This document shows positions 25,252-36,226 of a DNA stretch of 38,363 nt, piece by piece. Position 1 is the first letter of the stretch, and each line of letters opens with the position of its first letter. A program made the position numbers and the translations under genes. The DNA lies in contig RFFT01000056.1 in assembly GCA_003696795.1 (NCBI GenBank), positions 1 to 38,363 of the forward strand, given 5' to 3'. The notes beneath the pieces were generated by a model. The model made no database searches, was not told the DNA's origin, and was given only the letters and a program-made list of their open reading frames with translations. The DNA comes from Zetaproteobacteria bacterium (GTDB lineage Bacteria > Pseudomonadota > Zetaproteobacteria > Mariprofundales > Mariprofundaceae).

Positions 25252-27546
25252 GTGCTACACACGTTGAAGCGACATATGCCGTTTTTTATCTGGGCGCCGG
25301 GCGCGGCGCTGCTTGTCTATATTGCGGGTGTTGATCTGTATCCTGCAGAGCAGCTGATTGTAGCTGTGTTGTGCGTATCGTTGATGGTGGGGGCGTGGTG
25401 GCGCTATATCCGGACGCTGGACAATCATTATATGCTGCGCACGGCGCGCCTGTTTTTGATGGTCATCGCCGGTTTTCTTGCGATCCGTTATATTATCTGG
25501 CGCTTCGAATATTCGATTCCCTGGTATGAAAGCACGTTCGACATCGCCTGTGCCCTGATGCTGCTGTTTGCCGAGTGTATTGCGGTTGCGCTCTATTTCG
25601 GTGGCGCGTTCGTGAACCTTCATCCCTTGCGTCGTCATCCGGACCCGGTGGATATGAAGGATCCCAATCTTCCAACCGTCGATGTATTCATCCCGACCTA
25701 CAATGAGGATGCCGACTTGTTACGCACCACCTTGCTGGCGGCGACCGATATGATATATCCGCGTGACAAGCTGAGGGTGTATCTGCTGGACGACGGTGGC
25801 ACGGAGGCGAAATGCGCGCAGCGCGGAAAGAAGGGAGAACAAGCGTGCCTTAGGCGCAAGGAGCTGCAAGACCTCTGCTTTGAGGTTGGTTGCTTCTATA
25901 TGACCCGTAAGGACAACCGGGACGCCAAGGCGGGGAACATCAATGCCGCCCTGGCACGCACGGATGGCGAACTGATCGTTATTTTCGATGCCGACCATAT
26001 TCCCACGTCCGATTTCCTGAAAAACACGGTCGGCACATTGATCGCGGACGAGCGCAAGGCTTTCGTGCAAACGCCACATTTCGTGATCAATCAGGATCCG
26101 TTCGAAAAGAACCTTCAGGCCAGCCGCGAGATGCCCAATGAGGCCGAGATGTTTTATACCATGAACTTGCGTGGCATGGATAATTGGGGGGCCGGCTTTT
26201 TCTGCGGATCCGGTGCGGTCATGCGGCGTAAGGCGTTGGAGGAGATCGGTGGCATTTTGACCGATACGATCGTGGAGGATGCCGAAACTTCGATTGAGCT
26301 CGTGCGCCGCGGCTGGAAGACGGCATACCTGCATCTTCCCATGCTGTGTGGCTTAAACCCGGAGAGTACCGAGGCGTATGTGCATCAGCGGCGGCGTTGG
26401 GCTACCGGGATGTGTCAGTTGTTGTGGGAGAAGAATCCCTTGTTTGTGCCCGGACTGAACATTGCGCAGCGGATAAGTTATTTTAACTGTATTTTGTTCT
26501 GGATTTTTTCGCTCTCGCGTATCGTATTCATCATTTGTCCGTTGCTGGCGTTGATCGGCGGCGTGACCCTGTTCGCCGCGCCGCCGGTAGAGATTCTGTT
26601 GTACATGGTGCCTTACTTGATTGGCCTGGGGTTGGTGGTGAATGCGCTGTATGGCCGAGTACGGTGGCTGTTTGTCTCCGAGATCTATGAGACGCTGAGC
26701 TCGATGTTCTTGTTCAAGAATATTATCAAAACCATCCTCTTCCCGAAGCACGAGCCGTTCATTGTGACCCCGAAAGGGGAGCGGATGGAGTATGACAAGC
26801 TGTCATATCTGGCACCGCGCTTTTATTTGGTGATCGCACTGCAGTTCCTGGCCATCGTCGCGGGTTATTATCAACTATCGACGGATCCAACCACGCTGAA
26901 TTCAGTAACCTTCTCGATGGGGTGGAATTTGTACAATATGATTTTCACTCTGGCCGCGCTTGGCGTGCTGATTGAGCGACGCCAGGTTCGTAGCCGACCT
27001 CGCGTGCCTATTCACGAGATGGCGAAGGTGAAGTTCAACAACAAGTTCGTGCCGTGTGAAATTGTCGATATGACTGAAGATGGTGCGCTTCTCCGTTTGC
27101 CGGGCTGGATTGAACGTCTTGATGCCAAGGAGGGCGCGCTGGAGTTTGCCCAAAACCATATCCCCAAGGAAGAGCTCTCGCTAACCAGGGTGTTGGAAAA
27201 CTTGAATCGGGTGGGTTTCCAAGTGACCAGCGTGCGCGAGCAGAAGAAAGGCGAGGAGGAGCGGAACCTTTTGGTCGGTGTACGCTTTCGCTATGAGGAT
27301 GAAATCCAGCGTGTGGCTGTGGTGTCCTTTGTCTATGGCAGCTCGGAGCGGTGGAAGCGGTGGCTGATGCAGCGCAATAAGCATTCCCGGATTATGCAGG
27401 GTGTGGTATTCGCTGTCCGTGCTGCCTCTATGGGGGTTTTTCATATCGCGATGGCGTTCAAAGGCCTGCAGCATGTCTTGCTTGCGTCCAGATTGCTGTC
27501 TCGGCGACGAAACGCATCTAGGGTTACAGAGGGAGAGAAGGCATGA
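25252..27546 (+). CDS. bcsA: Cellulose synthase catalytic subunit with PilZ domain
   Basis: BcsA polymerises UDP-glucose into beta-1,4-glucan and passes it through the inner membrane with BcsB. The 764-residue protein has N-terminal membrane segments, a GT2 domain with DDGGT (180-184), DAD (246-248), FFCGS (316-320), VEDAET (341-346; TED is more usual) and QRRRW (379-383), the gating loop FIVTPK (503-508), further membrane segments and a PilZ domain. PilZ keeps RxxxR (RRQVR, 576-580) and DMTEDG (606-611), where the usual DxSxxG serine is threonine, so c-di-GMP activation is likely. The GTG start follows GGGAGAG. It overlaps bcsB as ATGA. Confidence 0.97.
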   Translation: MLHTLKRHMPFFIWAPGAALLVYIAGVDLYPAEQLIVAVLCVSLMVGAWWRYIRTLDNHYMLRTARLFLMVIAGFLAIRYIIWRFEYSIPWYESTFDIACALMLLFAECIAVALYFGGAFVNLHPLRRHPDPVDMKDPNLPTVDVFIPTYNEDADLLRTTLLAATDMIYPRDKLRVYLLDDGGTEAKCAQRGKKGEQACLRRKELQDLCFEVGCFYMTRKDNRDAKAGNINAALARTDGELIVIFDADHIPTSDFLKNTVGTLIADERKAFVQTPHFVINQDPFEKNLQASREMPNEAEMFYTMNLRGMDNWGAGFFCGSGAVMRRKALEEIGGILTDTIVEDAETSIELVRRGWKTAYLHLPMLCGLNPESTEAYVHQRRRWATGMCQLLWEKNPLFVPGLNIAQRISYFNCILFWIFSLSRIVFIICPLLALIGGVTLFAAPPVEILLYMVPYLIGLGLVVNALYGRVRWLFVSEIYETLSSMFLFKNIIKTILFPKHEPFIVTPKGERMEYDKLSYLAPRFYLVIALQFLAIVAGYYQLSTDPTTLNSVTFSMGWNLYNMIFTLAALGVLIERRQVRSRPRVPIHEMAKVKFNNKFVPCEIVDMTEDGALLRLPGWIERLDAKEGALEFAQNHIPKEELSLTRVLENLNRVGFQVTSVREQKKGEEERNLLVGVRFRYEDEIQRVAVVSFVYGSSERWKRWLMQRNKHSRIMQGVVFAVRAASMGVFHIAMAFKGLQHVLLASRLLSRRRNASRVTEGEKA

Positions 27547-30323
27547 ATACTTATTGGAAAAGTGGGATGATCTTGTGCTTGAGCATCGCTCTATTGACAA
27601 CGGCCTATGCAGCGAGTGAGCCGACTCAGGGGGGAGCGGCAATTTCTGCCAAGCAGGCTGCGTCGAGTAAGACGGATGTTGGTAAGGCTACTGCCCACAA
27701 GGTGCAGGCGGAGGCGAAACAGCCGGCTTCGGCTGCGAAGCAAGCTGTGTCGGGCAAGACGGATGCTGCCAAGACTGCCGCCCACAAGGTGCAGGCGGAG
27801 GCGAAACAGCCGGCTTCGGCTGTGAAACAGGCTGTGTCGGGCAAGACGGATGCTGCCAAGACTGTCACCCGCAAGGTGCAGGCGCAGGCGAAACAGCCGG
27901 CTTCGGCTGCGAAACAAGCTGTGTCGGGCAAGACGGATGCTGCCAAGACTGTCGCCCACAAGGTGCAGGCGGAGGCGAAACAGCCGGCCTCGGCTGCGAA
28001 ACAAGCTGTGTCGGGCAAGACGGATGCTGCCAAGACTGTCGCCCGCAAGGTGCAGGCGGAGGTCAAGAGACCCTCTCGGGTGGCAGCAGCCAATATGCCG
28101 GAAGAAAAACGGTCGGCATATGTCCCTGTCCCGGTGCCGGCCCAGCCCCTCCAAGCGGTCAAGGTCCGCAAGCCTTTGCGCGGGTTCATTCATGACCACG
28201 CCCGCCGCTTTATCGTGTTGCGTCAGTCCGAGGCGTCTTACCCGCTTGATGTTCCGCTCTCCTATCGCGTCGAGCCCTCCGCCATTCGCGTGCATTTGGT
28301 GTTCACCAATTCCAACGCCTTGCTTAAAGGGCGGTCGCAATTGCGCTTGCGCTGGAATGGCGGTGTTTTTGCCCAGGCGCCGTTGGATCCTGCCTATCCG
28401 GATGGTGCTATTGATGTTCAGGTTCCGCTTGAGTTGACCAAGAGCGGGGGCAATGAATTGGCGATCGAGGTGTCGCAGCATTATCTGTCCGAGTGCGAGG
28501 ATCCGGGAAGCCCGGAGCTGTGGACGATGGTGGATATGGATTCCTCATACATCGAACTGGATGGCACGATGCGTCCATTGCAGCCAACCTTGCGCGCCTT
28601 CGACAACTTGCTTGCCTCTGCGAATTGGGGTGACCTGCATGTGATGATGGTGCCTTTGAGCAAGTCGGAAGAGCATCTGCATGCCGGAACGTTGCTGGCG
28701 GAAAGCATTGCAAATCGCGCCGGCAAGCAGACAGTTATTATTGATAGTGTTGAGCTGGCGCAGACCGTCGGCAGCACTGGAGTAGGGCATGACCTGATCG
28801 TATTTGGCACCTATAAGGAAGCCGAGCGTTTGCTGGGGCCGGTAGATGTGAAGGGTGATGCGAAGGGTCATATTTTTGTGCGTGCCCGACAAAACGATCC
28901 CGGTCATTTCTTACTTGCAGTGCTGGGCAGAACGCCAGGTGATCTGGTCAAGGCCGCGTCGGCCTTCGCTTGGGCCACCCTGCCGCTGGCGGACGAGGCG
29001 AGCATGGATGTGTTCGACGTGAAGGTGCCTGAAGCGATGGCCTACTCGTCTTTGCATGCGGTGCAAGAAGGGCGCGAGTACAATTTCTCCGACCTTGGGT
29101 TTCAAACAACGACGATGAAGGGGCTGCAGGACAAAGCCACGGTAAGCTTGTGGTTGCCGCCCGATCTGTTTTCCAAGAATCATGCGCGGGTGGAAATGCG
29201 CCTGCACTTCAGCTATGGCGCGGCATTGCGCCCGGATTCGGTGTTGAATATTTATCATAACGGGCAGTTTCTACGCGGCATTTCGCTCTCCGATCCGCGT
29301 GGATTGTTGGTGCGCGACTATCGCATCTGGATTCCGTTGTACGCCTTCCGACCGGGCTTGAACGAGTTCCGCTTTGAAAGTCGTATGCATGCAAATACCG
29401 GAACCAACTGCACCACCGGCAATACAGACAACCTGTTGCTCACCCTGTTTGATGATTCGACGTTTACGATTCCGGACACCTCGCATTATGTTGCGATGCC
29501 CGATCTCAATTACTTGGTCAATACGGGATACCCTTATCTCGGCGATCTTGGCGATACCCCAGTCATCCAGATTCCAAAACTGAATGCGAGGATGTTGGCC
29601 AGTGCCTGGACGTTGGCCGCGCGCCTGGGGCAGCTGAAGGGAAGTCCGATCCAGCGCTTGACGATTGCCGATCATGCGGGGAGGGCGTCGAATATTATTC
29701 GACTGGATACCTTCGCTAATATAGAGGATTCGATCTGGGCCGCAGCGCCGGTCAACCTTGGGCGCAACGGTTTCATCAATCATCCGAGTCTGGCCAACCC
29801 GAGCGTGCTGGGGCATGAGCCACTGACATGGCGCAAGAAACTGAACATGTTGCTTTCCGGTTCGGAGTATGAGTCGCCTGAGACGGTAGGGCCACGCTAT
29901 CATAGCGTTGGCATTCGCCAGTCCTTCAGCTTGAAGAACCAAGGTGCCTTGATGCAGTTCGAGAATCCGAAGGTGGATGGTGGGACGATGACCCTGCTTG
30001 TTTCGGACAGCGAGCATCAGTTGGCGGAAGCCGTGGAACACCTCGTTCAACTGTGGCCGCAAATGCAGGATTCCCATGGCGATCTATTGTTGTGGGGCAC
30101 CTCGGTGGAGAAAGGGCAGCCCGACTTCTGGTCCGGCGAGGTGGGTTCCAATGTGTATCATATTGGCAACATGCCCTATTTGGAGCGGATTACGTATTTC
30201 GCCATCCAATATCCCGTGTTTCTGCTCGTCGTGCTGGTGCTGATGTTCCTGTTCATGGTGATCCTGACGCGGGCGCTGTTGATTATGTATCGGCACCAAA
30301 CGCATCCGCATATCGAACCATGA
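27543..30323 (+). CDS. bcsB: Cellulose synthase subunit BcsB with N-terminal 29-residue repeats
   Basis: BcsB is the periplasmic, membrane-anchored partner of BcsA that guides the glucan. The 926-residue protein has a signal peptide (cleavage near AYA-A, residue 23), then five 29-residue Ala/Lys/Gln-rich repeats (35-179), a proline/valine linker (PVPVPAQ), the conserved BcsB region with carbohydrate-binding and flavodoxin-like modules (from about 220), and a C-terminal membrane helix (YPVFLLVVLVLMFLFMVILT) that normally packs on BcsA. The Lys-rich repeat region is not part of the usual BcsB and explains the excess over about 780 residues. The ATG overlaps the bcsA stop; bcsZ starts 7 bp downstream. 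Confidence 0.95.
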   Translation: MNTYWKSGMILCLSIALLTTAYAASEPTQGGAAISAKQAASSKTDVGKATAHKVQAEAKQPASAAKQAVSGKTDAAKTAAHKVQAEAKQPASAVKQAVSGKTDAAKTVTRKVQAQAKQPASAAKQAVSGKTDAAKTVAHKVQAEAKQPASAAKQAVSGKTDAAKTVARKVQAEVKRPSRVAAANMPEEKRSAYVPVPVPAQPLQAVKVRKPLRGFIHDHARRFIVLRQSEASYPLDVPLSYRVEPSAIRVHLVFTNSNALLKGRSQLRLRWNGGVFAQAPLDPAYPDGAIDVQVPLELTKSGGNELAIEVSQHYLSECEDPGSPELWTMVDMDSSYIELDGTMRPLQPTLRAFDNLLASANWGDLHVMMVPLSKSEEHLHAGTLLAESIANRAGKQTVIIDSVELAQTVGSTGVGHDLIVFGTYKEAERLLGPVDVKGDAKGHIFVRARQNDPGHFLLAVLGRTPGDLVKAASAFAWATLPLADEASMDVFDVKVPEAMAYSSLHAVQEGREYNFSDLGFQTTTMKGLQDKATVSLWLPPDLFSKNHARVEMRLHFSYGAALRPDSVLNIYHNGQFLRGISLSDPRGLLVRDYRIWIPLYAFRPGLNEFRFESRMHANTGTNCTTGNTDNLLLTLFDDSTFTIPDTSHYVAMPDLNYLVNTGYPYLGDLGDTPVIQIPKLNARMLASAWTLAARLGQLKGSPIQRLTIADHAGRASNIIRLDTFANIEDSIWAAAPVNLGRNGFINHPSLANPSVLGHEPLTWRKKLNMLLSGSEYESPETVGPRYHSVGIRQSFSLKNQGALMQFENPKVDGGTMTLLVSDSEHQLAEAVEHLVQLWPQMQDSHGDLLLWGTSVEKGQPDFWSGEVGSNVYHIGNMPYLERITYFAIQYPVFLLVVLVLMFLFMVILTRALLIMYRHQTHPHIEP
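27645..28079 (+). repeat. Five tandem 87-bp coding repeats in bcsB
   Basis: Five 87-bp units in frame, each encoding a variant of AAKQAVSGKTDAAKT followed by (A/V)(A/T)(H/R)KVQAEAKQPAS. Units 2-4 differ at a few positions only; unit 1 and the end of unit 5 are more diverged. The near identity at DNA level suggests recent duplication and possible copy-number variation between strains. Confidence 0.93.
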
Positions 30324-30330
30324 GCTTGAT

Positions 30331-31368
30331 GTGGGCAAGGTTCTGCTGATGGCGGCGCTGGCGCTTGTGCTGTCCTCGTGCAGCCGCGCGCCGGCGCCGG
30401 TGCTGAATCCGGCGGATTGGTCGGCATTCAAGGCGCGTTTTATCCGCGCGGATGGGCGGGTGGTTGATGATGCGAAGGGTGGCCGAACCCATTCGGAAGG
30501 GCAGGGCTACGGGATGCTGTTTGCCGTCGCGTTCGACGACCGCGCGACATTTGAGCGGATTTGGCGCTGGACGCAGAAGCATTTACAGGTGCGCGACGAT
30601 TATCTGTTCGCCTGGCTGTGGGATGACCAAGAGGGGCGGGTGATCGACACCAATAACGCTACCGATGCGGACCTGATCATTGGGTGGGCCTTGATGCGCG
30701 CCGCACGCCATTGGAGTGCGCAAGAATATCGGCTGGCGGCGTCCCGGATTTTTGATTCGCTGGCTTCTTTGCGTATCCGGGTCAACGGTCGCTTGTTTCT
30801 GTTGCCGGCGGCTAAGGGTTTTTATGATGCCGACAAGCTTGTGCTCAATCCGTCCCATTTCGTGCTGCCTGCCTACCGCGAGCTGGCCGAAGTGGACACG
30901 CATTTGGATTGGCATGCGTTGTATGTGGATGCCCTGGCTTTACTCAAGGCCAGCCGATGGGGCGAATGGCAGCTGCCGCCGGACTGGCTTGATTTACGCC
31001 AGGGTGGAAGACCCTGGAAGAAACGGCCGCCGTATTTCAGTTATGACGCGATACGCATTCCACTATTTGCTGCCTGGGCGGGCGAGACGGAGCTGTTGCA
31101 GCCTTATTTGGAGCTGTGGGCGCCGTTTTCAATGCGTGTCAGGCAGCCGGACATTGTGGATTTGGAGACCGGGTTCGTGCATTTACGGCAAGGATTCCAT
31201 GCGGTGGATGCAATCCGGCGATTGTGCCAGCATGCCGCAAAAGGGGATGCCGAGCCGGGTGGTTTCCGCTGGGACAAACATGCGAGCTATTACAGTGCCA
31301 GCTTGTACTTGCTGAGCCAAATGGCTTGGAACGAGCTGGATTTGAATCGTGGGAGTGAGGGACGATGA
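30331..31368 (+). CDS. bcsZ: Cellulose operon endo-beta-1,4-glucanase (GH8), lipoprotein-like
   Basis: BcsZ is the family 8 endoglucanase that trims nascent cellulose in the periplasm. The 345-residue protein has the acid residue in SEGQGYGM (Glu56) and the general base in SYDAIRIP (Asp239), plus DADLIIGWALM and FYDADKLVLNPSHFVLPAY. Unlike E. coli BcsZ, its N-terminus ends in a good lipobox (LSSC, Cys17), so it is predicted to be a lipoprotein. Start is a GTG at 30331 with a weak site; an ATG at 30349 (MAALAL) is a possible alternative that keeps the lipobox. It overlaps bcsC as ATGA. Confidence 0.94.
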   Translation: MGKVLLMAALALVLSSCSRAPAPVLNPADWSAFKARFIRADGRVVDDAKGGRTHSEGQGYGMLFAVAFDDRATFERIWRWTQKHLQVRDDYLFAWLWDDQEGRVIDTNNATDADLIIGWALMRAARHWSAQEYRLAASRIFDSLASLRIRVNGRLFLLPAAKGFYDADKLVLNPSHFVLPAYRELAEVDTHLDWHALYVDALALLKASRWGEWQLPPDWLDLRQGGRPWKKRPPYFSYDAIRIPLFAAWAGETELLQPYLELWAPFSMRVRQPDIVDLETGFVHLRQGFHAVDAIRRLCQHAAKGDAEPGGFRWDKHASYYSASLYLLSQMAWNELDLNRGSEGR

Positions 31369-34004
31369 GTAAATCATTGCTTGGAGCAACACTGATGCTG
31401 GCATTGCTAAGTGCCATGCCCCCCGTCAGCCAGGCGGAAGTCAAGCCTGCGGATGTCGTGGTCAAAAGCAGTAATCGTTCAAGTGCGGTGACCGTGCACC
31501 GCTCGACCAAGTCGGTGGTTGCGCCGGTTGGACGTAAACAGCAAAACAACACGAGTGCTGCCAAACCGCGCGCGGCCAGTACGGTGAAGGAGGTGCGGGG
31601 AGAGCAAATGGTGGATGAGGGTGTGATTTGGGCCCTGATCCGCAACGAGCAGTATGAGTCCGCCTATGCCACGATCGAGAAAACCCGTAAGGAAAAGCCC
31701 GGTTGGAAGCCTTCCGCTAAGTTGCTGGAGGTGCTCGCGAATAATCATACGGATTATCTGATCAACCAGGGTCGGGAACGCAAACAATGGGATAGGGTAA
31801 TCGAAGCCAATCGCCGCTATCCGGAGCGTTTCGACTGCGCGCACAATTATCGTCGCCTGGCCTTGGCTGAGGCCAGGGTTCATTTGCGCCAGTTTTCGAA
31901 AGCGAGTCAGGAATATCGGGCCATTTTGGAACAATGTGCCGAGCCGCAGCGTATGGAGGCGATGGACCATGCGGCCTTGCATTTGCCTGCAACACATTAT
32001 CATCGCTTGCTGGCAGCCGCGCGCAAGCTGCACTGGTCGGCACGCGGAAGGGCAAGGCTTGCAGCAGCCGAGGTGGGGCAGCTCTTGCAAGGCAAGCCGA
32101 CGGCAGAGGAGCTGGACAAGTTGACCGCGCGCGAGAAGGAGCTGTTGGCGACGAGGGATGTGGGCGTGGCCAACGCGTTGGCTTGGGCCAATTTGGAGCA
32201 CGGGCGGACAGCGCATGCGCTTGAACTGTTCCGCATGAGCCGCGGCTGGAAGGACAACGATGAGGCATTGAAGGGGGAGATTCTTGCCTTGCATCGGCTG
32301 CAACGCCCGGATGAGGCGCTTACGCTGATCAAGGAGCAACAGCATCGTATCAAGGCGCATGATATGGAGAAAGATGTGCTGCCCTTGCAGGCGGCGGCAT
32401 GTGGTGCGCGGAAGGATTACGCTTGTCAGGCAGAGGCGCTGGAACGGCTGGCTACCCTACGCCCTCTGCAATTGGGTGAGCGCGAGGCGCTGGCTTGGGC
32501 GCACTTTCAATTGCGCAAGTATGCTTCTGCCGAGCATCAATTTGAGGCTTTGTACCGTGATCAGCCCAACGAGAATCATGCCGAGGGTTTATATTTGAGC
32601 CTGCAGCGCCAAGGTAAGGAGGCAAGGGCGCGCCAGCTTGCGCGCGAGCTGGGGGGACCGCTCACCAAACACCTGGCGCGGCTGGACAAGCAATATCGCA
32701 GCAGTGAGGCGGCGCAGTATTTCGGGCGCAAGCTGTTCCACTCCGCGCAACGTGCTGATGAGAGCTATGACAATGCGCTGCCGCACCTCGATACTCCGTT
32801 TGTGCGTTTTGGCGGCATGAACCGCATTCGTTCCGGTGTTGGCGCGCAGCCCATGATTCATACCCTGAAGCTCACCAAGTTCTATCTGGAGGGTGGATAT
32901 TTCCTGGACCGGGAACAATCCCTGACGGCGAAGGTGGAACGCGTATTCATTGATGCGGGGTCACCGTTGGCTGAAGGGCTGAGTATTGGCACGCTGCCTG
33001 CCTTACCGGTACTGCCGCAGGTGCCGATAGCCGCGATACCAACCTACCTCAATGGGTATGAGTGGGACGTGGAGTACCAGCGCGAGGGATGGCAAAGTTA
33101 TTACCTCGATCTCGGCCAGACCTTTATTGGCGGCGGAATCAAGGCCACCTGGAAGGGATTGCTCGGCACGACACGCCAATATGATCGAGGGTTCTTCGGT
33201 GCCGAGGTCTATCGTCAACCGATTCGCGAGAAGCTGTTGCCTTATGCTGGATTGCTCGACCCCTACACGGGGCAATATTGGGGTCGGGTCACCCGCAACG
33301 GGGTCAAGGTGATCGGTTATCACGGGCTGTGGGACGACATCCCCGCCACTTTCGACGAGCGTACTGGCTTTGGCGTATTTTATGAGGCAGGGGCAGAGGT
33401 GATTAATGGTGTCGGCGTGAAGGCGAACAGCCATTATTATGCCGGCCTGGCCCTTCCATGGACTTTCGATGTCGATATCCCCTGGGGCGCCAAGGTCAGC
33501 GTTGCGCCGTTGATTCGCTATGAGCACTACAAGCAGGATCAGAACCATTTCACTTATGGCCATGGTGGTTATTTCAGTCCCCAGTACTCGCTCACACCGG
33601 GGGTGAACCTGCATGTGGAGTCGCATGAAAGCGAAGTGGTGAATTACATGTTTAACGGCTTCATCGGCCACCATACGCATCGGCACAACGCCTCTCCGGT
33701 ATTACCATTTACGCCCGGGGTTCCAACCATTGAGGGCATCAATTACCTTGGTTCTATTGTCCAGGAATGGACATGGAGCGTGCGTGCTGCGGCTGTGACC
33801 GAACTCTCCGAAAATTGGCGCTTAGGCGGTGAGGTTGGCTATGCACGTAGCAACGATTCGCAACTGGGGGTACCGATCCAGACCAAGGACCTATCCTACT
33901 TGATTTACCTGACTTGGAATCTGGATGCGCGGCAGGATACGTTGAGCTCAGATCGGGCTGCCTATGGCATGCGCCAGCGATACGGCACGCAACCGCTGTT
34001 TTAA
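31365..34004 (+). CDS. bcsC: Cellulose synthase outer-membrane subunit BcsC
   Basis: BcsC provides periplasmic TPR repeats and an outer-membrane beta barrel for cellulose export. The 879-residue protein has a signal peptide (cleavage near SQA-E, residue 24), a Ser/Lys-rich linker (to about 80), a helical TPR-like region with AEHQFEALYRDQP-type repeats (about 85-450), then a C-terminal beta-rich domain (about 480-879) ending in LSYLIYLTWNLDARQ and GTQPLF. It is shorter than E. coli BcsC (about 1157), mainly through fewer TPRs. It is the last gene of the bcs operon and converges with the GMC dehydrogenase gene over 29 bp with no clear terminator. Confidence 0.93.
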   Translation: MSKSLLGATLMLALLSAMPPVSQAEVKPADVVVKSSNRSSAVTVHRSTKSVVAPVGRKQQNNTSAAKPRAASTVKEVRGEQMVDEGVIWALIRNEQYESAYATIEKTRKEKPGWKPSAKLLEVLANNHTDYLINQGRERKQWDRVIEANRRYPERFDCAHNYRRLALAEARVHLRQFSKASQEYRAILEQCAEPQRMEAMDHAALHLPATHYHRLLAAARKLHWSARGRARLAAAEVGQLLQGKPTAEELDKLTAREKELLATRDVGVANALAWANLEHGRTAHALELFRMSRGWKDNDEALKGEILALHRLQRPDEALTLIKEQQHRIKAHDMEKDVLPLQAAACGARKDYACQAEALERLATLRPLQLGEREALAWAHFQLRKYASAEHQFEALYRDQPNENHAEGLYLSLQRQGKEARARQLARELGGPLTKHLARLDKQYRSSEAAQYFGRKLFHSAQRADESYDNALPHLDTPFVRFGGMNRIRSGVGAQPMIHTLKLTKFYLEGGYFLDREQSLTAKVERVFIDAGSPLAEGLSIGTLPALPVLPQVPIAAIPTYLNGYEWDVEYQREGWQSYYLDLGQTFIGGGIKATWKGLLGTTRQYDRGFFGAEVYRQPIREKLLPYAGLLDPYTGQYWGRVTRNGVKVIGYHGLWDDIPATFDERTGFGVFYEAGAEVINGVGVKANSHYYAGLALPWTFDVDIPWGAKVSVAPLIRYEHYKQDQNHFTYGHGGYFSPQYSLTPGVNLHVESHESEVVNYMFNGFIGHHTHRHNASPVLPFTPGVPTIEGINYLGSIVQEWTWSVRAAAVTELSENWRLGGEVGYARSNDSQLGVPIQTKDLSYLIYLTWNLDARQDTLSSDRAAYGMRQRYGTQPLF

Positions 34005-34033: not shown

Positions 34034-35620
34034 TTAGCCGCGCTTCAGGTGCTCGGCCAGTCTGAGACTGAGAGCGGCAATGGTGAGTGTCGGGTTGGCT
34101 GTGCCCATGGAAGGAAACACATGCCCGCCGACAAGATACAGGTTGGGATGATCATGGGCGCGGCAATTGGCATCCACCACCGAGTTCCTGGGATTTGTCC
34201 CCATGCGTGTGGTTCCCGTCGGATGATGGGATGAGGTGGATACCACCGAGCGGACGATTCGCCCATCCATGTGGCCAATCATATCGGCCACGCGCTGCTG
34301 CCAAACCCTGAGTCCGTCTTGGGTGTATTTGGTGGACTGAAAGTAGATCGTGGGCAATGGCAGCCCCAAAGGGTCGAGACGCTGTCCGTCCAACTCGATG
34401 CGGTTGTTCGGGTCAGGCAGTTGTTCAATCTCGGCACCGATATGCCCTGTATGGATCACCCGATCCCGAAGCAATTCCAGCGCTTCGGGCCACATGGCCT
34501 GATGATCGAGAATCTCGGACATGTGTCGATGGATATTCACGTCGTTGGAGATGAAGAGCTTGGCAGCGGCATGGTGTTTGCGAAAGGGTCCATCGCGACC
34601 CAGGCGCAAGGTGGCGATGCTTTGCGGCCCTCGCCCGGCGTAGAGGGGTTCGGGCAGACGGAAAGTGGTCAGGAAAATGGTGTGATCCATCAGGTTGCGT
34701 CCCACTAGGCCGGAGCTGTTGGCGATACCGTTGGGGTGGCGCTTGTCCCGGCTCAGCAGCAACAGACGCGCGCTTTCGATCGTGTTGCAGGCGACCACCA
34801 CGCGTCGTGCGCGCAGCACATGATCTGAGCGATCCGGTGCGCGGTAATGCACTTCATGAATCGTGCCATCCGCGGCGGCGACCAGACGATGGGCCACCGC
34901 GCGGGTGATAATACGGGCGCCCAGGCGCTCCGCCTTACGCACATGGTGGTCGGCGCTGTAGGACGCCCCAATGGGACAAAGCGGAGTGCAGGTTCCGTTG
35001 CCACGGCAGGCCGGCCTCCCATCGTAGGGGCGGCTGTTGCGCGCGGCGGGGAAGGGTGAAACCCGGATCCCGATCGCATCCAGCTTCTGTGCGATCCGGC
35101 GGTCACTGTAGGCCAGCGGGATCGGTGGCAGTGGGTAGGGTGCGCTGCGTGGCGAGCCATGATCATCCTCGCTGTCTCCGGCAACCCCCAGCGCATGCTC
35201 GGCGCGCACGTAGAAGGGCTCGAGTTCGTCATAACCGATGGGCCAGTCCACTCCGACGCCATAGTTGCTGTACAATGCAAAATCGGTGGGCAGAAAACGT
35301 GGCGTGATTCCGGTCCAGTGCCAGGTCGTGCCTCCAACGCGCTTCAGAAACAGAGGGTTGAATGCCTGCCCCACATAGGGTCCATAATAAGAGGATGGCT
35401 TTTCCGGATCAGGTTCCATGGTCCAAGGCTGCTGTCGATAGGGCGCGGCGAGATTGCGGTTCCAGGCTTGGCGATAGCGCTCCGTGGCGACATGGCGATG
35501 CACACGCTCGCCGGCTTCAAGCACAATCACCTTATCGCCATGGGCGGCAAGCTCATGGGCCAACAATGCGCCAGCCACGCCGGAGCCGATGATCAGTGTG
35601 TCGCAGTCCAGTTGCATCAT
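34034..35620 (-). CDS. GMC-family FAD dehydrogenase with predicted Fe-S motif
   Basis: A 528-residue flavoprotein of the glucose-methanol-choline family. The FAD-binding motif is IIGSGVAGALLAHELA near the N-terminus; the C-terminal GMC domain has HHPTGTTRMG, NLYLVGGHVFPSMGTANPT. The segment ACRGNGTCTPLCPIGA gives C-x5-C-x3-C, the pattern that binds a [3Fe-4S] cluster in FAD-dependent glucose/fructose dehydrogenases. It is therefore probably the catalytic subunit of a membrane-linked sugar or sugar-acid dehydrogenase that passes electrons to cytochrome. It has no signal of its own and would be co-exported with the adjacent Tat-signal subunit, with which it overlaps as ATGA. The cytochrome subunit was not found in the window; substrate unknown. 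Confidence 0.9.
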   Translation of the reverse strand: MMQLDCDTLIIGSGVAGALLAHELAAHGDKVIVLEAGERVHRHVATERYRQAWNRNLAAPYRQQPWTMEPDPEKPSSYYGPYVGQAFNPLFLKRVGGTTWHWTGITPRFLPTDFALYSNYGVGVDWPIGYDELEPFYVRAEHALGVAGDSEDDHGSPRSAPYPLPPIPLAYSDRRIAQKLDAIGIRVSPFPAARNSRPYDGRPACRGNGTCTPLCPIGASYSADHHVRKAERLGARIITRAVAHRLVAAADGTIHEVHYRAPDRSDHVLRARRVVVACNTIESARLLLLSRDKRHPNGIANSSGLVGRNLMDHTIFLTTFRLPEPLYAGRGPQSIATLRLGRDGPFRKHHAAAKLFISNDVNIHRHMSEILDHQAMWPEALELLRDRVIHTGHIGAEIEQLPDPNNRIELDGQRLDPLGLPLPTIYFQSTKYTQDGLRVWQQRVADMIGHMDGRIVRSVVSTSSHHPTGTTRMGTNPRNSVVDANCRAHDHPNLYLVGGHVFPSMGTANPTLTIAALSLRLAEHLKRG

Positions 35621-36156
35621 CGGTTCGAGGCTGTCGGGCGGGGCGGTTCCTGCCAGAAACCGAACGGCTCAGTGCTCATGCCCGGCACAGGTCGAATATC
35701 TTTCAATGCCTCGAACATCAACGCGTGTTCATAACTGATCGTGCGGTTTCCAATTTCATGGTAATAGATGCCCGTCATCCAGGTGGTTAGGATGTGTCCG
35801 GCAAACCATCGTTCCGCATCATCCAGATTGCGAGGGACAAGCAAGGGAGTGCGTGGACGCATGGATTGTGGATAGTCGGGGAAGAGCTTATGCATCAAAC
35901 GCTGCATATGTTCTTTGCCCCAGGGCTCTTGTATCAGGGCAGCGAAGATGTCGCGCAGCATGCCTGGATCCAGCGCGCTTTGACCAGTCAAATAGGTGCT
36001 CAGGATACGAAACTGTTCGAGGCTGATGTGATCCTTTCGTTCCCCCCCGGCCAGAGTCGGTTTGGGCAGCAGGGTTAATCCCGCAAACAGCAGCGCGAGT
36101 GCCTTGCTCATTTGACGCCGTGTCGGATCGAAATGGATCGCCGCTCGTTTGCGCAT
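35617..36156 (-). CDS. Tat-targeted small subunit of sugar dehydrogenase (FAD-SLDH type)
   Basis: A 179-residue protein with a twin-arginine signal (PTRRQMSKALALLFAG, cleavage near TLAGG). The C-terminal region TGIYYHEIGNRTISYEHALMF and PGMSTEPFGFWQEPP resembles the small subunit of acetic-acid-bacterial sorbitol/fructose dehydrogenases and gluconate dehydrogenase subunit 3. In those systems it is needed for Tat export and stability of the large flavoprotein subunit. The frame opens at 36213, but that start falls in the divergent promoter; 36156 is more likely, though neither has a clear ribosome-binding site. It is divergent from arsR. Confidence 0.82.
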   Translation of the reverse strand: MRKRAAIHFDPTRRQMSKALALLFAGLTLLPKPTLAGGERKDHISLEQFRILSTYLTGQSALDPGMLRDIFAALIQEPWGKEHMQRLMHKLFPDYPQSMRPRTPLLVPRNLDDAERWFAGHILTTWMTGIYYHEIGNRTISYEHALMFEALKDIRPVPGMSTEPFGFWQEPPRPTASNR

Positions 36157-36198
36157 GGGGCAATTGAAGTGTATTTCGTCGGTAAAGACAAGTTGCGC

Positions 36199-36226
36199 TT
36201 GACTTATCATCATATTCTAATATATT
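36199..36226 (+). promoter_or_regulatory. Putative arsR promoter giving a leaderless transcript
   Basis: TTGACT (36199-36204, 5/6) and TATATT (36221-36226, 5/6) with 16 bp between. A start about 7 nt after the -10 would fall at the arsR ATG (36233), and no ribosome-binding sequence is visible before that ATG. Confidence 0.5.
36206..36223. promoter_or_regulatory. Candidate ArsR operator 1
   Basis: Contains a perfect 12-bp palindrome ATATT-CT-AATAT (36212-36223) between the -35 and -10 of the arsR promoter. On the minus strand, 36206-36218 reads AGAATATGATGAT, shared with 11 of 13 bases at 36563. Position fits autorepression. Confidence 0.5.

Follow-up and report, generated by a model that had tools for sequence, protein, structure and literature searches.

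The bcs operon and its surroundings

The window analysed here comprises 38,363 nucleotides, one contig (C64) of a 1.55 Mb genome that is 97.5% complete in 107 contigs. The host belongs to the Zetaproteobacteria and is Mariprofundaceae-like, an uncultured relative of the marine iron-oxidisers. An intact bcsA-bcsB-bcsZ-bcsC operon lies in the window with all genes on the forward strand, each recognised by curated profiles, and its bcsB product carries a tandem repeat array between the signal peptide and the conserved fold. The features are as follows.

25252..27546, + strand: bcsA, cellulose synthase catalytic subunit with PilZ domain (TIGR03030 CelA, 733 bits, over the cut-off; PilZ PF07238)
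27543..30323, + strand: bcsB with repeat arm, 926 aa (PF03170 BcsB, 281 bits, residues 224-739; translation)
27543..27611, + strand: likely signal peptide, approximately residues 1-23 (sequence judged by eye)
27645..27731, + strand: repeat copy 1, diverged, with 17-22 of 29 residues in common with the others
27732..27818, + strand: repeat copy 2
27819..27905, + strand: repeat copy 3
27906..27992, + strand: repeat copy 4
27993..28079, + strand: repeat copy 5, diverged at its 3' end
28119..28211, + strand: juxta-domain segment, starting with YVPV, which links the arm to the BcsB fold and is conserved in the genus (alignment)
28212..29720, + strand: BcsB core (PF03170 match)
30331..31368, + strand: bcsZ, GH8 endoglucanase (PF01270, 186 bits)
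31365..34004, + strand: bcsC, outer-membrane exporter (PF05420, 125 bits)

The bcsB frame starts with the ATG at 27543, in overlap with the bcsA stop, and stays open to 30323. Its product scores 281 bits against a PF03170 cut-off of 21 and covers profile positions 17-547 of 606, and bcsA, bcsZ and bcsC are its neighbours. The nearest solved structures by sequence are PDB 7L2Z and 6YG8 (E ~1e-24). With E. coli-type BcsB the window protein shares the PF03170 core, a probable C-terminal membrane anchor and the same gene neighbours, but it adds a lysine-rich repeat arm of 169 residues, whereas the linkers in our phylum sample are almost without lysine. The window protein is a standard BcsB, and it is the N-terminal linker that varies across the family. 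The AlphaFold model (three sequences) is too poor to show the CBD-FD-CBD-FD fold of BcsB, with a mean pLDDT of 35, and only a C-terminal helix at residues 891-920 is moderately confident.

Several other features of the neighbourhood were observed. A gene with a Glucosaminidase domain (PF01832; 24311-25117, reverse strand) is divergent from bcsA; it has a counterpart in place in one congener (G001), and the stretch examined from the other (G002) showed none. At the N-terminus, zetaproteobacterial BcsC proteins have a short basic stretch in common, of the form VQRxxxS (31365-31610 in the window), and those of G009 and G063 hold about 200 additional residues of repeated 'DE..LW..' / 'W.PS' units (L076 3748-6906 and L083 3235-6417, both reverse strand). 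Convergent to the window bcsC, at 34034-36213 on the reverse strand, are a FAD-SLDH-like small subunit and a GMC oxidoreductase. The same pair directly follows bcsC on the same strand in G016, G009, G063, G010 and G084 (L075 7246-9374; L076 1604-3726; L083 1099-3221; L078 10498-12669; L081 2-2163), and a GMC fragment is convergent to bcsC in G001 and G002. This recurrent placement suggests that cellulose export is linked to an oxidase or dehydrogenase, which might oxidise the polymer. A literature search on such a bcsC-adjacent oxidoreductase found nothing.

The repeat array

The first-pass annotation described five near-identical 29-residue repeats at 27645-28079. The array, which takes up BcsB residues 35-179, is real and these coordinates are exact: Tandem Repeats Finder reports one 87-bp array (27646-28062, 4.8 copies, 92% matches), an in-register cut from 27645 gives five copies of 29 codons, 87 bp each, that end exactly at 28079, and the 29-mer that follows copy 5 has just 1-2 of 29 residues in common with any copy. 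Near-identity is limited to copies 2-4 (80-84 of 87 bp), while copies 1 and 5 have drifted; across all pairs, 62-84 of 87 bases and 17-28 of 29 residues are identical. The 87-bp repeat was sought across its own genome and occurs at no second place.

The source assembly is fragmented, and a repeat number produced by the assembly therefore deserves consideration. The longest exact repeat within 27501-28200 is 55 bp, short enough for ordinary short reads, and hence collapse or expansion of the array is unlikely. The copies are moreover distinguishable and in frame, and the contig continues through the operon. We regard an artefact, which the first-pass annotation had allowed for, as highly improbable.

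Following the likely signal cleavage (cleavage sites were placed by eye), the arm proper comprises 169 residues with a net charge of +19, 28% Ala, 15% Lys, a single Ile and no Phe, Trp, Tyr, Cys or Leu. Each 29-mer has a Pro and a Gly, except that copy 1 is without Gly at that place. The position of the repeats after a signal-peptide-like N-terminus and before the PF03170 match, as well as their basic, Ala/Lys/Gln/Thr-rich composition, agree with the earlier description. The proposed likeness to LEA proteins was not borne out, as no LEA family matched the arm at E values up to 1.

No Pfam family exceeded its cut-off against the arm. The best match was the histone H1-like HC2 family (PF07382; 18.7 bits against a cut-off of 40, E 0.002), which reflects composition: HC2 proteins have similar Lys/Ala repeats, but their compartment and context differ. 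SH3 families were found neither in the window BcsB (E 0.001) nor in the arm (E 1), and a search of solved structures with the arm gave one sub-significant match, to a leucine-rich-repeat protein (E 0.084). The arm is not clearly amphipathic, since 18 of 200 and 22 of 200 shuffles reach the maximal helical moment of the arm (windows of 18 and 11). The poor AlphaFold model draws the arm as unstructured, without helix. At the level of records, our literature look-up found no description of such a BcsB arm.

Arms of similar composition within the genus

Three of the four genomes of the genus possess bcsB; none was found in G003, which is 86% complete. The first-pass annotation would have taken absence of the region from relatives as a refutation; the repeat is indeed absent from both bcsB-bearing congeners, but the arm is present. 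Since neither has this repeat, the earlier suggestion of a copy number varying between strains gains no support from them. In G001 (L013) the arm has its own 54-bp repeats of the type KAADAKAAAK and a net charge of +10 over 124 residues, and in G002 (L014) it has no tandem repeat and a net charge of +8 over 110 residues. Both are Ala/Lys-rich and lie at the same site as the window arm, and all three arms of the genus have 15-17% Lys and net charges of +8 to +19. Their alignments are not convincingly above shuffled sequences in any of the three pairs (289, 41 and 379 of 500 shuffles match the real score). Within the genus the arms thus agree in composition and place but differ in sequence and repeat unit.

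The BcsB body is conserved in the genus (pN/pS 0.16-0.17), the arm has a pN of 0.47-0.55, and the pooled pN/pS among the five copies of the window is 0.50; frame and composition, rather than individual residues, are therefore kept. The composition shared by three related genomes may have been inherited rather than selected.

BcsB N-termini in the class and the phylum

The class sample contained 78 genomes, 32 of them with a PF03170 match, and the phylum sample 398 genomes. Of 63 BcsB places handled, 55 arms were kept (11 zetaproteobacterial and 44 other), after those cut by contig ends (G022, G084, G094, G381, G270, G263) and those in a single frame with bcsA, whose arm was not parsed (G005, G102), had been dropped; the arm of G203 was counted as 69 aa with a net charge of +1. 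Weak or partial PF03170 matches were left out (G185, G252, G278, G231, G352, G392, G148, the second of G314 and the Sfz1-like proteins), as was the second BcsB place of G373.

In most BcsB proteins of the phylum sample the fold comes after a low-complexity linker, 0-200 residues long. The 44 parsed arms from outside the Zetaproteobacteria have a median length of 53 residues, at most 3 Lys each and a net charge of at most +4. A low-complexity N-terminal linker is ordinary in BcsB, and a lysine-rich one is the exception. The view that the repeats resemble no BcsB module is hence weakened: no curated domain lies there, but low-complexity and tandem-repeat linkers are common at this place, and the richness in lysine alone is unusual. 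Outside the class, for instance, G211 has an acidic arm of 204 residues with 36-bp repeats (L070 922-1107), an independent repeat expansion at the BcsB N-terminus.

Other genera of Zetaproteobacteria show different arrangements at the same site. BcsB N-termini are short or acidic in G029, G016, G009, G013 and G072. Because such relatives keep bcsZ and bcsC beside bcsB (G029, G016, G009 and G072), a bcs system as such can do without the arm. G063 has a net acidic arm of 57-bp (19-residue) repeats, and G010 has a coiled-coil-like arm of about 630 (633) residues, rich in Lys, Glu and Gln, before its PF03170 core (L078 2538-4517). In G084 the N-terminus holds 36-bp repeats with TolA-like AEAKKLAEAK text (L081 8326-8433), the contig ending inside the array, and G094 has similar text in an arm cut by the contig end (L082 2-328). 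The central helical region of TolA and other Lys/Ala-rich segments span the periplasm. The window arm is likewise Ala/Lys-rich, low in complexity and periplasmic, and the arms of G084 and G094 are TolA-like by eye; the window 29-mer differs by its Pro and Gly, and no TolA Pfam match was found among seven arms scanned. Arm length does not compensate for a short BcsC, as both are short in G016 and the longer BcsC proteins of G009 and G063 accompany arms of 72 and 104 residues.

Sfz1-like relatives with an SH3b-like segment

A second group of BcsB-like proteins in the class resembles Sfz1 of the stalk cluster, which is described as having BcsB-like domains, a signal at its N-terminus and a membrane segment at its C-terminus (PMC8250860). 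The same paper assigns an SH3 domain to Sfz6, and its passages describing Sfz1 do not mention SH3. We inspected 16 Sfz1-like loci (L030-L045), assigned to Sfz1 by architecture. Their PF03170 matches are weak, and complete frames run to about 800 aa. Four stretches (G081, G086, G034, G038) were checked for neighbours, and each also contains a frame whose similarity to BcsA is weak and of the glycosyltransferase type.

All 16 loci have a conserved segment of about 70 residues, which follows the signal peptide or, in fragments, opens the sequence. At E values up to 0.1 this segment matches SH3_3 in 12 and SH3_4 in 11 of them; in full-length scans the SH3 scores fall under the curated cut-off, and solved structures gave no match at E 0.1. 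We consider it probably an SH3b-like domain, an assignment with good but not final support from sequence. After the segment comes a linker, in most cases basic (net 0 to +13; linker ends were set by motif, and the charges are approximate in the 6 of 16 rows where a default of 60 residues was used). Both Sfz1-like proteins and the window BcsB thus place a BcsB-like core behind an N-terminal appendage, usually basic in the former, within the same class. They differ in that the Sfz1-like proteins have the SH3b-like domain and a weak two-part PF03170 match, whereas the window BcsB has a canonical one-piece match and no SH3b-like domain.

A putative tether and its alternatives

We tentatively interpret the array as a length-adjustable, unstructured-to-helical cationic arm, a putative tether from the BcsB crown to anionic polymers of the envelope, with a probability of roughly 0.4. 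In E. coli the crown has six BcsB per BcsA, with BcsB about 70 Angstrom tall, and the first TPR of BcsC docks on the last BcsB, between its CBD-1 and FD-1 (PMC11379886); a BcsB crown is also described in PMC11470070. When TPR#1-4 of BcsC are fused to the BcsB N-terminus, with BcsB resuming at residue 55, they still dock in the groove (PMC11379886). The N-terminus of BcsB is therefore expected to lie near the BcsC docking site, at the distal tip.

By homology to E. coli, we infer that several BcsB copies per synthase form a periplasmic crown in this organism too, and that each N-terminus leaves it near the BcsC-TPR groove, at the tip facing away from the inner membrane. The computed span of a 169-residue arm goes from about 10 nm for a coil to 25 nm for a full helix. 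Such an arm could extend as far as the peptidoglycan or the outer membrane's inner face, and several lysine-rich arms per complex may bind anionic groups there, with the presumed benefit of holding the crown in register under the exporter.

That the arm may reach the wall, as the first-pass annotation proposed, is an argument from analogy, favoured mainly on account of the Sfz1-like proteins, whose SH3b-like domain and usually basic linker occupy this site in the same class. Bacterial SH3 domains are cell-wall-binding modules. The SH3b-like segment is nevertheless a different module in a distant relative, the quality of the AlphaFold model is too low to show where the arm lies, and bcs systems without a basic arm are found in other genera. 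In favour of a tether, lysine-rich arms are exceptional, and the arms of the congeners are alike in composition without homology beyond it.

The closest rival, nearly as likely as the tether, is that the arm is a passive spacer, a weakly constrained disordered linker that was expanded by slippage and drifts in length and composition with no specific partner. The linkers before most BcsB folds, including the tandem-repeat acidic arm of G211, would fit this well, as would the lack of the window repeat in the congeners and the fact that most differences between the copies change an amino acid (between copies 1 and 3, 11 codons differ non-synonymously and 1 synonymously). Mere drift accounts less readily for three genus arms so rich in lysine and so strongly positive when none of 44 linkers outside the class has more than 3 Lys, or for a pooled pN/pS below 1 among the copies.

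It is quite unlikely, in our judgement, that the basic arm instead folds onto the acidic BcsB bodies, its own or a neighbour's in the crown, or onto BcsC, and so stabilises the polymer. The core of the window BcsB has a net charge of -20 against +19 for the arm, and the E. coli N-terminus lies close to the BcsC docking groove (PMC11379886). Arm and core charge do not covary, however, as the core is acidic also in proteins without a basic arm (G009 -30, G029 -13, G072 -15), and the N-terminal linker and repeat region of the window BcsC, each with a net charge of +7, would repel the arm. Slightly less likely again is that the arm binds or guides the exported glucan. Because it contains no aromatic residues, stacking on neutral cellulose is unlikely, which weakens the earlier suggestion of binding to the growing glucan; this reading would require an acidic polymer, such as one that the adjacent GMC oxidoreductase had oxidised. 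The oxidoreductase pair does adjoin bcsC in the window and in five other Zetaproteobacteria, but G016 has the same neighbour without this arm.

A broader extension of the tether is speculative and on balance improbable: the N-terminus of zetaproteobacterial BcsB-type co-polymerases could be a hot spot for independently installed, envelope-reaching appendages that dock the exporter to the cell wall and perhaps fix the site where a polymer or stalk is extruded. Such appendages would include the SH3b-like domain with basic linker of Sfz1-like proteins, the Ala/Lys arms, the TolA-like helices and the coiled-coil-like arm of about 630 residues.

Implications

Because the N-terminal pattern is class-wide, the finding is slightly more interesting than a lone repeat, and represents a modest twist on a known machine. 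To our knowledge, it is not settled how iron-oxidising Zetaproteobacteria hold their polysaccharide exporters while extruding directed fibres. If wall anchoring is indeed the role of the BcsB arms and of the SH3b-like segment in Sfz1-like proteins, the outcome would be a natural series of tether lengths for the positioning of the cellulose synthase crown across the periplasm.
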